NCBI GenBank assembly: GCA_037043015.1
Contig: CM073325.1
Location: forward strand, 4,838,501 to 4,902,500
Origin: Bryum argenteum
Lineage: Eukaryota; Streptophyta; Bryopsida; Bryales; Bryaceae
Reading direction: 5' to 3'
Length of the DNA stretch: 64,000 bases
In this document: one piece after another, positions 27,783 to 38,787 of the stretch
Layout of the letters: every line of letters starts with the position of its first letter
Position numbering within the stretch: position 1 is the first letter of the stretch
The notes under the pieces: generated by a model
What the model saw: the letters and a program-made list of their open reading frames with translations, nothing else
Databases searched by the model: none
What the model was told of the DNA's origin: nothing
Program-made: the position numbers and the translations under genes

Positions 27783-28118
27783 ATGGACCCTCGCCTTGAG
27801 CTCCTCTCTTTGTATAATACATCAAATGACTTGGCTCTATATAGTGGTATTGGGTCTTAAAATCAAATTTTATCACGTGGTTTGAATTGCCTTTGCCATG
27901 TTACAGAAACAACTGTAGGTCAAAGTTTGGCTTCCCAAGATTGGTGTTCTTTAGTATGATTATATACTGAACATGAATTCAAAGAGTTTCCTCTTAATTT
28001 CATGATCAAGGCAATTGCATCATCCATCATCCACGAGTAAGTTTTAGTGCAACTCATTCGAAAGACAAACTGTGTTTTTCTTACAAGTAGAATCAAACAG
28101 TCTTTTAGTTTTCTTTAA

Positions 28119-28479
28119 CCCTTAAATGGCCTTCCACTCCCCAATGGGCAGCTCGAAATTGGATCTCAGCATCTTTTGGACTTGGGCATCATGAATAGTG
28201 CACTTTTTGAACTTGGGCATCATGAATGAACCAATCAATGATGAGCTTGCAACCTCCTACAAGGTTTTGTGCAACCCCAACCTACCTACCACAATCCTTT
28301 CAAATCACATATCTCTCATACAAATTGTGATTTGGATTGTGAAATTTTACTATGTGGATGCATCATAAGAAGGTGACCACAATGATATAAAAATATAAGC
28401 AAAAAGTGAAGAATCAAATGAGCTACAGAGAAGATTCTGCAGGAAAACAGCCCGAGGGGCTGACAGGGCCGTTTAAGGG
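28119..28479. mobile_element. TTAA-flanked MITE, copy 1 (uninterrupted)
   Basis: The element begins CCCTTAAATGG and ends CGTTTAAGGG, and is flanked on both sides by TTAA (28115-28118 and 28480-28483). It is about 361 bp, has no coding frame, and contains two near-copies of (A/G)ACTTGGGCATCATGAA. A second copy at 38172-38783 shares the full length apart from an inserted SINE, with the same TTAA flanks, so the ends are well supported. TTAA target sites and CCC termini are the hallmark of piggyBac-type transposons. Confidence 0.85.
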
Positions 28480-28852
28480 TTAACCAAGACCTGGTCGACA
28501 ACTGCCTCCTATAACACACTAAAAGTCAAAAATAACGTCTTCTGTACCAGCCCTTTTCTTCGGTAAACGATACCATCTTGGAATTCGAAACAAGAGAACC
28601 ATCTGCTCAATGACATACCATACTAAGCTTGCTGTAGCAATATACAAAGAATATGCACAAGATAACCTCGCACACATTCACTTCAGCAGTAATATCCTTT
28701 CATCCCATGCTAAACATGCTCCAGCTTCTACCGGCTGATAAACAGTTCATATTAAGATACCTACGTCTAGTTTATTCAAAGATATTGCACATGCCACGCT
28801 GGTCAAATGGAACCCAAAACAACCGTAAACCACTTGAAATCAGGTAGTTCGT

Positions 28853-35433: not shown

Positions 35434-36594
35434 TTACAGGTCAATGACTCTAGACAATTTCTGAATGCGGTTGAGCAAGAAATCTCCCTGCTTAATTGTA
35501 GCCTGATACAAGGCGTTCTTCGCATCCGGTCGGTTGGTCTCGAGCACGCCCGCCACTTTGTCAATCTTACAGTTCAACTTCCCGGCAGCAATGAACCTCG
35601 AAAGCTCCAAATCGAGAAAATTCACGCTCACACCAAAAGCCTTCGCCATAGCTTCCATCGTCACGCTCTTGTATGATTCCAGAAACTGCGAGTATGCCAC
35701 AACCCTAACTTCGCGCATGTAGAATCGGAAATGAGGATGCAGGTACCGGTCCAGTCGAATTTGGTCAGTCAAACCGGCGAACGCCACAAAGAACGTCTTG
35801 TATTGGCACTCATAGAGCGCATTCAAGAAGTCGGACAGATGGTTAATCTTCCCTATCACCGTCAAAATCTCCGGAGCATCGACTACTTTCTGCCGCAACG
35901 CCACGCGGTCGAGGGATATAATACTCGTCAAAACAGAGTAAAAAATGAAATTATCGTATGAAAAAAGCTCAGTGGTAGTGAACGTCGAAATTGAGTCGAG
36001 GAACAACGTCGCTGCTTGCTTGAAGTTCCGTGTCGCCATACAATACAGGCCTTCGTAGACCTTAAGCCTGTTTTTGCGTTCCCAATCACCGCCCTCGTCG
36101 AACAAACTCTTCGCCTTATCAATGTTGCGTGAGATTAGGGTAAAATCAAGATGGAAAAACCCTAATCGCAAGGTATGGAAAACGAGGTCCATCTTCTGCC
36201 CTACGGCGACCGTCTTGGCTTCCGTGATTTTCAGCTGCTCCAGCGAGTTCACCTTGTCGCCGATACGGACGTAGAAAAGCGCCTTCGCGAGAAGAGCCTC
36301 TCGTACCTCGCTCTCACCGAGATTCTCCTCCGCATCGGCGATCTTCTCATCAAGCTTCTTAAGCTCGGCGTCGTTCTTGCTGTTCATGGCATCCAGAACG
36401 GCTTGATCGAGCGCCCAATCAAGCTCAGAACAGCATGCTTGGTACAGACCAGCCATGTCGTCGGCCTGAATGAGCCCCAGAACCTCCTCCTTCAAAGACG
36501 CTTTCTCGATATCCTCCACATCGGGCGACCGCAGCAGGAAGAGCTTGTGCGCCAGCACGAGCTTGGAATCCTGCGAGGCCTCTTGCTCCTCCAT
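35434..36594 (-). CDS. RPN7: 26S proteasome regulatory subunit RPN7 (PSMD6 homologue), intronless
   Basis: Non-ATPase subunit of the 19S lid, which helps hold the lid together for ubiquitin-dependent proteolysis in cytosol and nucleus. The frame encodes 386 residues from MEEQEASQDS; plant RPN7 proteins are of about this length. An upstream in-frame ATG would add seven residues (MQEISGT), but the MEEQ start fits the family better. Visible family blocks are KKLDEKIADAEENLGESEVRE, VYEGLYCMATRNFKQAA, LDSISTFTTTELF, PHFRFYMREVRVVAYSQFLE and the PCI/winged-helix end ELSRFIAAGKLNCKIDKVAG, ending RIQKLSRVIDL as in other plants. The coding region has no intron, which is unusual and may mean a retrocopy. 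No stops or shifts occur. A truncated copy of its 3' end lies at 31791-31953. Confidence 0.96.
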   Translation of the reverse strand: MEEQEASQDSKLVLAHKLFLLRSPDVEDIEKASLKEEVLGLIQADDMAGLYQACCSELDWALDQAVLDAMNSKNDAELKKLDEKIADAEENLGESEVREALLAKALFYVRIGDKVNSLEQLKITEAKTVAVGQKMDLVFHTLRLGFFHLDFTLISRNIDKAKSLFDEGGDWERKNRLKVYEGLYCMATRNFKQAATLFLDSISTFTTTELFSYDNFIFYSVLTSIISLDRVALRQKVVDAPEILTVIGKINHLSDFLNALYECQYKTFFVAFAGLTDQIRLDRYLHPHFRFYMREVRVVAYSQFLESYKSVTMEAMAKAFGVSVNFLDLELSRFIAAGKLNCKIDKVAGVLETNRPDAKNALYQATIKQGDFLLNRIQKLSRVIDL

Positions 36595-36954
36595 TGTCCC
36601 TGAGATCTCTTGCAATTAGGGTTTGATCAACTCGGGATTGCGAGAGCCGACTCAAATGAACCTTCAAAATGAGCTCCGAGAACTGAAAATTCAATCACGA
36701 CGGGCTCCTCCGAGCTTGCGAGAAATGGCGAACTGGAAAAACGTAGGGCTACAATGGGAGAGAAGACGCTCCCGTGAGAAGCATCGCTCAACGAACGTTC
36801 GAGGCATACGTCGACGAACGAAACCTCAACTACGTCGGGATAGATGACGAAGATGATTCATGAAGCAACCGTTTAATGTATGAACACTTATTTTTCAGCA
36901 ATTAGGTAATCCACTATACTTGAAGTAGTGGAATGAGTGGCTTCCTATTTTCCA
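36595..36954. other. Upstream region of RPN7
   Basis: The first 250 bp are GC-balanced and could hold the RPN7 promoter and 5' leader. No clear TATA box was picked out. No further gene seen. Confidence 0.4.
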
Positions 36955-36969
36955 GTGATTAGCAAATAG

Positions 36970-37093
36970 CGTCCACCCTGAGAGGGGTTAGTAGTCCTAT
37001 ACCACTGTTGTTATGTCCTGTGGGCATATCATCAAGGGTATGTCGAACTGACACTTTATTCACGCCAACCCTCACGGGTCTGGTGTTCTTCTT
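36970..37093 (+). mobile_element. Short 5'-truncated SINE copy with 15-bp target duplication
   Basis: A 124-bp insert is flanked by perfect 15-bp direct repeats GTGATTAGCAAATAG (36955-36969 and 37094-37108). Its 3' part (from about 37012: TGTTGTTATGTCC, GTGGGCATATCATCAA, TTTATTCACGCC, GGGTCTGGTGTTCTT) matches the body of the 5S-headed SINE at 38302-38542. The head region is not 5S-like, so this copy is truncated or has a different head. Long target duplications identify LINE-mobilised insertion. Confidence 0.88.
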
Positions 37094-37741: not shown

Positions 37742-38117
37742 AGATAGATAGAAGATAGATAGATAGATAAAAACTCCGGTCTCTTTCTTAGGGGCCGGCG
37801 TGAATGAAGTGTTCGTTCGTAATGCTAATATCCCGATGGTCACCGGACAAGGGGAAATTGGAACAATACTACTTCCCCCTCTCGAGGGTGAACACTATAA
37901 CTACGCTAGTTTCTAGCCTAGTCACTAGTGCCTTGAAGATACTTGACATGGTATCTCCCCAAAGGGCTTTGAGGTACCCATACAACAAGGTCCAAGGACC
38001 TCCCACAATAGTTGGTGGACTATAGTGGTGAGCAACACATCGGCATGGGGAATAGAACCCACGACCTCCTCATTGGGGGCCTAAGCCCTAACCACCAAGC
38101 CAAGGCTTGTGGTGCCT
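37742..38117 (-). mobile_element. tRNA-derived SINE, full length
   Basis: Minus-strand element of about 376 bp with near-perfect 12-bp target duplications (CGCTTGGGGTAA at 37730-37741 and CGCTTGAGGTAA at 38118-38129). At its 5' end lies a Pol III A box (minus-strand TGGCTTGGTGGTTAGG, within 38080-38103), and about 25-30 bp on a B box (GGGTTCTATTCC, 38049-38060), the tRNA-type internal promoter. The 3' part carries CGAACGAACACTTCATTCACGCC, like the 3' conserved domain of plant SINEs and the same as in the 5S-headed SINE nearby. It ends in a (TATC)n tail. It depends on LINE machinery to move. Confidence 0.88.
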
Positions 38118-38301
38118 CGCTTGAGGTAACTAAATGTGTAATCTCACATGGATGATATGCATTGGCTTTAACCCTTAAATGTCTAGCTATACGAATTGGG
38201 GCAGCCCAAAATTGGATCACAACATATTTGGACTTGGGCATCATGAACAGTGCACTTTTTGAACTTGGGCATCATGAATGATCCAATCAATGATGAGCTT
38301 G

Positions 38302-38542
38302 TAAATAAATACATAAATAAATAAGAACACCAAACCCTTGTGGGTCTGGCGTGAATAAAATGCTCGTTCGACCTACCTTTGATGATATGCCCACGGGACA
38401 TAACAACAATGAAAAAGATAAATGGATGCAGCACCGGGACTTCCCGGGAGGTCACCCATTCTAGTACTATTCCGGCCCAAAGGAATTTAACTTCAGAGTT
38501 CTGATGGGATCTAGTGTAGTAGCCTTGGTATGAGCGCATCTC
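38302..38542 (-). mobile_element. 5S rRNA-headed SINE nested in MITE
   Basis: A 241-bp insert is flanked by an 8-bp direct repeat TGAGCTTG (38294-38301, 38543-38550). The uninterrupted MITE at 28 kb shows this sequence once (GATGAGCTTGCAACC), proving the insertion site. Read on the minus strand, the 5' 119 bp are a 5S rRNA sequence, followed by a short link, the SINE body (GTTATGTCCCGTGGGC, CGAACGAGCATTTTATTCACGCC, GGGTTTGGTGTT) and a TTATTTATTTATGTATTT tail. No TG...CA ends or primer site exist, so it is not an LTR of a 5S-carrying TRIM element. Confidence 0.88.
38424..38542 (-). ncRNA. 5S rRNA-derived head with Pol III internal control region
   Basis: Minus strand starts GAGATGCGCTCATACC and continues with ATCCCATCAGAACTCTGAAG, TTGGGCCGGAATAGTACTAG and AATGGGTGACCTCCCGGGAA, ending GGTGCTGCATCC. 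This is a full-length match to plant 5S rRNA. The box C/intermediate region is conserved, while box A has changed (AAGTTAAATTCCTTTGGGC in place of AAGTTAAGCGTGCTTGGGC). It is a transposon promoter or pseudogene, not a working 5S gene: it is a single copy with substitutions and continues into a SINE body. Confidence 0.9.
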
Positions 38543-38787
38543 TGAGCTTGCAACCTCCTACAAGGTTATGTACAACCCCTATCTACCTACCACAATCTTT
38601 TCGAAGCACAAAATCACTCATACAAATTGTGATTTGAATTGTAAAATTTCACTTTTTGAATGCATCACAAGAAGGTGACCAGTTTGACATCAAAATATAA
38701 GTGAAAAGTTGAGTACATTGAGAGCTACAAAGGAGAGATTCTGTTGGAAACGGCCCCCTTGGGGCCGCTAAAACGTTTAAGGGTTAA

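Follow-up and report, generated by a model that had tools for sequence, protein, structure and literature searches.

A 5S rRNA–SINE insertion in the moss Bryum argenteum as one of at least 49 one-off 5S fusions

A 241-bp insertion in the moss Bryum argenteum (assembly GCA_037043015.1) joins a 5S rRNA sequence to a piece of a SINE. It was found in a stretch of 64,000 nucleotides, here called the window (contig CM073325.1, positions 4,838,501 to 4,902,500 of the forward strand; positions below are those of the window). The locus raises the question of whether it belongs to a mobile SINE family headed by 5S rRNA, as a first-pass annotation of the sequence had proposed, or whether the two parts were joined on this one occasion.

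Structure of the insertion

The insertion and the related elements of the window are as follows.

28113..28483, plus strand: intact copy of the MITE that received the insert, representing the empty site
37003..37093, plus strand: further SINE C piece in opposite orientation, 86% identical
37755..38116, minus strand: free full-length SINE A, 95.8% to its consensus, far end approximate
38166..38787, no strand assigned: MITE receiving the insert, ends TTAACCCTTAAA ... CGTTTAAGGGTTAA, limits approximate
38294..38301, no strand assigned: target site duplication, copy 1 (TGAGCTTG), 8 bp
38302..38412, minus strand: 5'-truncated SINE C, 111 bp, with a TTTA-like tail; 3' part of the insert
38413..38419, minus strand: 7-nt filler ATCTTTT, between the T-run and the SINE
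38420..38423, minus strand: A and short T-run (ATTT) behind the 5S
38424..38542, minus strand: complete 5S rRNA, 7.3% divergent from the 40-copy consensus
38543..38550, no strand assigned: target site duplication, copy 2 (TGAGCTTG), 8 bp

Rfam detected 5S_rRNA (RF00001) on the minus strand at 38541-38423 with 90.6 bits (gathering score 38, E 3.6e-18), covering positions 1-120 of the 120 in the model. This was the sole Rfam match across the window at gathering scores, and ARAGORN (bacterial code) reported no tRNA there. The 119-bp 5S head of the first-pass annotation is a complete copy as proposed, with its exact span now placed at 38542-38424, counted from 5S base 1. The SINE body is likewise present as the 3' part of a SINE, limited to 38412-38302 (38423-38413 are the T-run and filler). 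Its first bases, TCATTG, correspond to position 143 in the SINE C reference. SINE A, of which a free copy lies nearby, is the most frequent 5S partner elsewhere in the genome.

The 8-bp target duplication described earlier is found at both ends of the insert. Taken alone, this 8-nt match is within chance (4 of 24 mismatched controls score equally high), and the ends of the insert are therefore fixed by the empty site at 28 kb. When the insert and one duplication are removed, the joined flanks align to that MITE without a gap across the site, with 81% identity overall. The empty-site control thus holds, and so does the claim of a single insertion: the 5S and the SINE lie inside one target site duplication (TSD) and both are absent from the empty site. 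A member of the MITE family that received the insert was also seen at another locus (L118), where it sits inside an apparent fusion of a 5S half and SINE C.

Two further observations concern genes of the window. A cluster of several B3-domain-like frames extends over 29284-60682; two are Pfam-confirmed and the others were judged by eye. An RPN7 proteasome subunit gene is present at 35434-36615 (minus strand) as a single uninterrupted frame of 393 aa, with 92% identity to Ceratodon purpureus, 88% to Physcomitrium patens, 80-81% to the conifers listed and mostly 76-80% to the flowering plants listed; other records reach 98%. The nearest named relatives of this one gene point to a moss, and the two confirmed B3 frames agree with a plant host.

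5S loci and their partners across the genome

The whole genome (258.8 Mb in 25 contigs) was searched with the insert and its halves. Among 40 scored of 1268 candidates, the 241-bp query found at least two further places where 5S passes into a body like that of the insert (84% and 80%), together with many places that match the 5S half only and many that match the SINE half only. The SINE half alone gave 1196 first-look candidates, 40 of which were scored; it is a very frequent repeat without 5S. The SINE-half loci that were printed start at the flank or extend upstream into their own SINE, and 5S is joined to this piece in the window copy only. The window body therefore does not represent an element defined by its 5S head, as had been suggested, since it occurs mostly without 5S in the loci read.

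The 5S half alone gave 85-88 candidates, 40 of them scored, and two DNA searches combined yielded 41 5S places. A search with a 43-nt pattern of the 5' end of 5S (at most 3 mismatches) found 54 places, 18 of them new, with 0 in the reversed control. In total 59 5S loci were read, of which 52 fit the 43-nt pattern at the 5S start. The copy number from these DNA and pattern searches is a lower bound. In 20 loci Rfam detected no RNA other than 5S at gathering scores.

A recognised SINE or LINE partner was found in 49 of the 59 loci; 3 lie in DNA resembling rDNA spacer (L040, L060, L077) and 7 have no recognised partner (L046, L050, L063, L066, L068, L073, L111). The most common partner is SINE A, which we take to be tRNA-like from its two promoter boxes. 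Among the first 41 loci, 13 carry SINE A from its 5' end or from at most two bases away and 11 carry it truncated, while 4 carry SINE C (window included), 3 other SINEs (L007, L041, L053) and 1 a LINE (L042). Among the further 18, SINE A starts from or near its 5' end in 3 and is truncated in 9; SINE C is the partner in 4 (L118 and L121 weak) and another SINE in 1 (L105). Truncated SINE A partners start at many positions, for example 43, 124, 251, 256, 263, 275, 295 and 326. Fused SINE partners were sought on the plus strand only, so the counts partly presuppose sense orientation, and partners in nested cases were assigned by eye. Nine partnerless loci were checked on both strands. Over the interval reaching from 300 bases ahead of the 5S to 700 behind it, neither strand of L046, L050, L063, L066, L068 and L073 matches SINE A, SINE C, SINE D or the LINE end. 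L111 shows no more than a weak match to SINE A, at a distance of over 300 bases.

TSDs were scored by comparing the left flank of each locus with the 640 bases behind the 5S and taking the best match (match +1, mismatch -2). A score of at least 9 was reached by 36 of the 49 fusions and by 0 of the 10 other 5S loci, as opposed to 31 of 708 mismatched flank pairs from different loci; a score of 11 was reached by 27 of the 59 loci versus 10 of the 708 mismatched pairs. The duplications in the 36 fusions are 9-17 nt long (L076 is counted here, though its match probably lies elsewhere than at the end of the partner). The 13 fusions below the threshold are the window locus (L039, 8 nt), L007, L042, L056, L058, L059, L061, L062, L072, L074, L110, L117 and L120; the duplications of L042 (16 nt) and L058 (13 nt) fall outside the 640-base range and hence are not among the 36. 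The many copies of 5S-headed inserts predicted by the first-pass annotation thus do exist, as 49 fusions, most with TSDs of their own. The duplication directly adjoins the start of the head in 26 of the 36 fusions above the threshold (5S base 1 in 25, a 5S fragment in L067), as expected of cDNA that reaches the 5' end of the RNA.

The distribution among contigs is uneven. C1, the largest contig (44.1 Mb), contains only 1 of the 54 places of the 5S-head pattern. Exact SINE A 5' ends number 5 on C1 versus 71 on the smaller C2, and many matches to the spacer satellite described below are on C1. C1 is perhaps a sex chromosome.

Junctions and donor RNAs

An A followed by 3-5 T stands directly behind the 5S in 32 of the first 41 loci; one more has 2 T and eight have none. 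The ATTT of the insert probably represents the oligo-U with which Pol III ends a 5S transcript. The T-run also follows the spacer-linked 5S copies L040, L060 and L080, and it is after the T-run that the fusions depart from the genomic sequence. The bases between T-run and partner, counted in 20 of 32 fusions, are 69 A, 11 T, 8 G and 1 C (total 89). One or two of the A may be SINE A's own: TSDs were found in 15 of 20 free SINE A copies, and 14 of these 15 have 0-2 A between the TSD and GGCACC. The window filler, ATCTTTT, is T-rich and goes against the A-rich trend. In L067, 7 A precede a full 5S and a longer A run follows it. One donor appears to be a 5S precursor that ended in oligo-U and had gained a short untemplated A tail.

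A second donor form is suggested by 17 heads that are cut inside the 5S, 13 of which end at nt 54-59 (BLAST ends). This zone coincides with the unpaired stretch at nt 54-58 of the predicted fold, and the donor would be 5S 5' halves cut in that stretch. The head pattern needs nt 3-45, so that shorter cut heads would escape it. The partners of the cut heads are SINE A, with various join points, SINE C and another SINE. Only 0-1 extra bases are present at 6 of the 17 junctions (L106, L107, L108, L113, L119, L120) and 5-8 at those of L112, L114, L116 and L117; the others have more, or an uncertain partner start, and part of the extra sequence may be diverged partner.

U6 snRNA is a second donor RNA of the same process. 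U6 matches were found in 24 places (all 24 candidates scored), and 7 of these, the imperfect ones and two others, were read. At one of the 7 (L123, 29-275) a U6-derived sequence is fused to a truncated SINE C and flanked by a short repeat. 5S is thus the favoured donor and not the only one. In L059 about 30 nt of further sequence, possibly a third RNA, separates the 5S from a truncated SINE A.

On the partner side, the TCATTG start of the window fusion recurs in 6 of the 25 SINE C loci printed, and headless SINE C copies begin at exactly this point in L011, L022, L023, L024, L027 and L033. The recurrence suggests a common stop or RNA end.

Identity of the 5S head

The head very likely derives from 5S rRNA of the host itself, probably the expressed one. 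The head consensus folds as a usual 5S (its energy is matched by 14 of 200 shuffles and is by itself weak evidence); the second helix is paired, by bases that differ from those of seed-plant 5S. A general 5S pattern found 17 places, every one of the head type. In L040, L060 and L077 the 5S lies within or borders a tandem satellite of about 0.8 kb, which matches DNA beside 18S copies. Because the main rDNA stretches, those beside 18S, are mostly N in the assembly, the match between head and host 5S is given as very likely rather than certain. The satellite related to the rDNA spacer (~0.8 kb) occurs on many contigs (C4:15858917 onward, C1, C7 near its start). L079 was considered as an empty site for the 5S of L040 and dropped, as its sequence differs at that stretch.

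The 5S copies differ by 0 to 18.5% from the head consensus; L008, L041 and L043 are the least diverged fusions. When the 20 least and the 20 most diverged copies are compared, their consensus is identical over 124 nt (40 of the 41 loci, with L071 left out and the spacer-linked and partnerless copies included). A consensus that is the same in old and young copies points to a conserved cellular donor gene, since drift would be expected of a master element. The difference from seed-plant 5S had suggested that the heads come from a derived "5S-like" master; this was rejected for the reason just given, and also because the fold is that of a normal 5S and some copies are linked to the spacer.

Mechanism of fusion

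The insert is very probably a chimeric retrogene made by LINE machinery, in which 5S was joined to SINE C; this reading is drawn from the sequence. In the proposed series of events, a LINE-encoded reverse transcriptase would begin target-primed reverse transcription on SINE C RNA and halt at an internal point of it. Copying would then resume on a second RNA, the host 5S rRNA, up to its first base, and the joined cDNA would be inserted with one target duplication. Other SINEs would have taken part in dozens of events of the same type, and a LINE in at least one.

Several features fit LINE target-primed reverse transcription with jumps: the full RNA 5' end (the window 5S is complete to base 1), the 5'-truncated partners and the single TSD. 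Partners and break points are many. The partner in L042 is the poly(A)-bearing 3' end of a LINE; a relative that is 55% identical to this end belongs to a 1231-aa frame with RVT_1 and zf-RVT domains. In five loci (L057, L062, L067, L071, L072) two 5S pieces stand in succession, as expected of repeated jumps; both this and the reverse-transcriptase kin of the LINE partner agree with the same mechanism. The agent was probably a LINE enzyme, and the join appears to be a template jump rather than an RNA ligation.

Ligation before copying is the main alternative. If SINE or LINE RNA first received a ligated 5S or 5S half and was then retroposed together with it, the resulting DNA would be nearly the same, and according to the available part of the human study this is one of the two routes proposed for U6/L1 (PMC13174262). 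The recurrent cut at nt 54-59 resembles a defined RNA end, and six of the 17 junctions of cut heads have just 0-1 extra bases. However, the full-length class has A-rich filler, the second, incomplete 5S piece in five loci is more easily made by repeated jumps, and partners often begin at a natural SINE 5' end. We therefore consider prior ligation rather unlikely.

One family or repeated fusions

In a true 5S-headed SINE family of the SINE3 kind, the fused unit would amplify as a whole. The frequency of SINE or LINE partners (49 of 59 loci) and of separate TSDs (36 of 49 fusions) agrees with such a family, and its head would include the stretch that presumably carries the internal promoter of 5S. 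Against it, the same 5S stands on differing partners, and neither a junction nor a body is held in common. The first-pass annotation had expected a shared 5S-body junction, and instead there are many different join points and partners.

The fused SINE A copies are also scattered in the SINE A tree instead of grouping as one clade. With 13 fused and 20 free copies, the tree required 10 label changes versus a shuffled mean of 10.6 (234 of 500 shuffles were as low), and the fused copies formed one group in 0 of 200 bootstrap trees. Most inner branches are weak. The tree covers 13 of the 16 full-length fused partners (L058, L069 and L117, interrupted or diverged, were left out), and the free copies were hand-picked, being 20 of the 100 listed among the 1052 matches to the SINE A 5' end, from the plus strand of C1 to C3 only. 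Together with the head consensus, which is unchanged between old and young copies, this makes a 5S-headed family very improbable. Fusions may nevertheless be re-copied slightly: L044 and L071 have the junction ATTTAGAAAA in common.

That the two parts arrived one after the other, a SINE landing at the 3' end of a pre-existing 5S retrocopy or vice versa, is conceivable insofar as both sequences are repeats in this genome. It is extremely unlikely, as one TSD surrounds both parts in 36 of 49 fusions, the empty site of the window contains neither part, and the short junctions printed leave little room for inner TSDs.

A Cassandra-type TRIM, or a solo LTR with 5S inside the LTR, is known from land plants and does contain 5S, so far as the accessible text of the source describes it (PMC10886601), and can practically be dismissed here: the 5S is at the extreme end of the insert, the partners vary, the TSDs are 8-17 bp, and no long direct repeats were detected within 501 bases around the window insert, in agreement with the earlier observation that LTR hallmarks are absent around it.

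The window insert is therefore one of at least 49 one-off 5S fusions and not a new 5S-headed mobile family.

Comparison with known chimeric elements

The closest counterparts are the U6/L1 chimeras of mammals. The available portion of the human catalogue (PMC13174262) gives 253 chimeras of known types, 70.9% with U6 and 10.5% with 5S. As in the moss, a complete sense small RNA stands at the 5' end and a full or truncated partner at the 3' end, with TSDs and repeated independent events; the partner there is L1 (PMC13174262), whereas in the moss SINEs predominate and 5S is the donor. The moss loci show what defines the U6/L1 type, a small RNA at the 5' side and a LINE or SINE at the 3' side inside one TSD, made in independent events with varying break points.

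Human 5S/L1 insertions also join 5S rRNA to a LINE. The same portion of that source reports 27 of them, 20 with TSDs of 7-17 bp, the 5S being typically antisense and truncated with breaks at 46 and 90, for which twin priming was suggested (PMC13174262). In the moss the 5S is in sense orientation and mostly complete, and the rest is cut mainly at 54-59.

In the fungus Magnaporthe, the part of the report available describes 31 WEIRD-MGL elements, one WEIRD-SINE and one tripartite element (PMC2104539). One RNA species is reused there as the 5' part with a LINE or SINE at the 3' side (WEIRD-MGL, WEIRD-MgSINE), double jumps occur, and direct repeats are 10-20 bp (PMC2104539), all of which resembles the moss fusions. 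The Magnaporthe donor RNA is described as one of unknown function, and the SINE partner is rare in the fungus (PMC2104539) and dominant in the moss.

SINE3 elements resemble the moss loci in having a 5S-derived head before a SINE body. They differ in that SINE3 is one fused unit that amplifies, whereas the moss fusion is made anew each time: the junction is not constant, and no single fused clade is seen among the 13 of 16 full-length SINE A partners in the tree.

TSDs of Cassandra are 5 bp long. A 5-bp TSD is also given for Ajax and for Helenus elements of plants in the accessible text of PMC10886601. Cassandra (in land plants) and Ajax are TRIMs with a 5S-like sequence in a retroelement; unlike the moss inserts they are LTR elements (PMC10886601), and neither an LTR pair nor a 5-bp TSD was seen here, the TSDs being 8 bp in the window and 9-17 bp in the 36 fusions.

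No 5S/SINE chimera in a plant was found among the papers listed from the open-licence literature, a scope outside which most subscription papers lie. The kind of fusion is known from mammals and a fungus; the SINE bias and the donor forms are what makes the moss case notable.

Biological meaning

The moss genome could be read as a graded-age record of 5S intermediates, a reading to which we give an even chance. LINE machinery would often fuse SINEs and LINEs to two 5S species, and the record would capture the birth of SINE3-like elements before amplification. The two species may be an oligoadenylated precursor that keeps its U-tail from Pol III, and 5' halves with the cut in the loop at nt 54-58. 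As to frequency, about 1% of full-length SINE A may carry a 5S head: SINE A 5' ends were found in 1052 places (at most 3 mismatches, control 0), and at least 11 of these belong to fusions read. The process could give birth to 5S-headed SINE3 families, with no fusion yet visibly amplified.

If this is true, chimeric retrogenes, described in mammals and a fungus, would also occur in a land plant, where SINEs would be the main partner and 5S rRNA the main donor. The junctions would be a genomic record of 5S RNA 3' ends, those of the oligoadenylated precursor and of the 5' halves, which can be checked by RNA-end sequencing, and the origin of 5S-headed SINEs would become testable.
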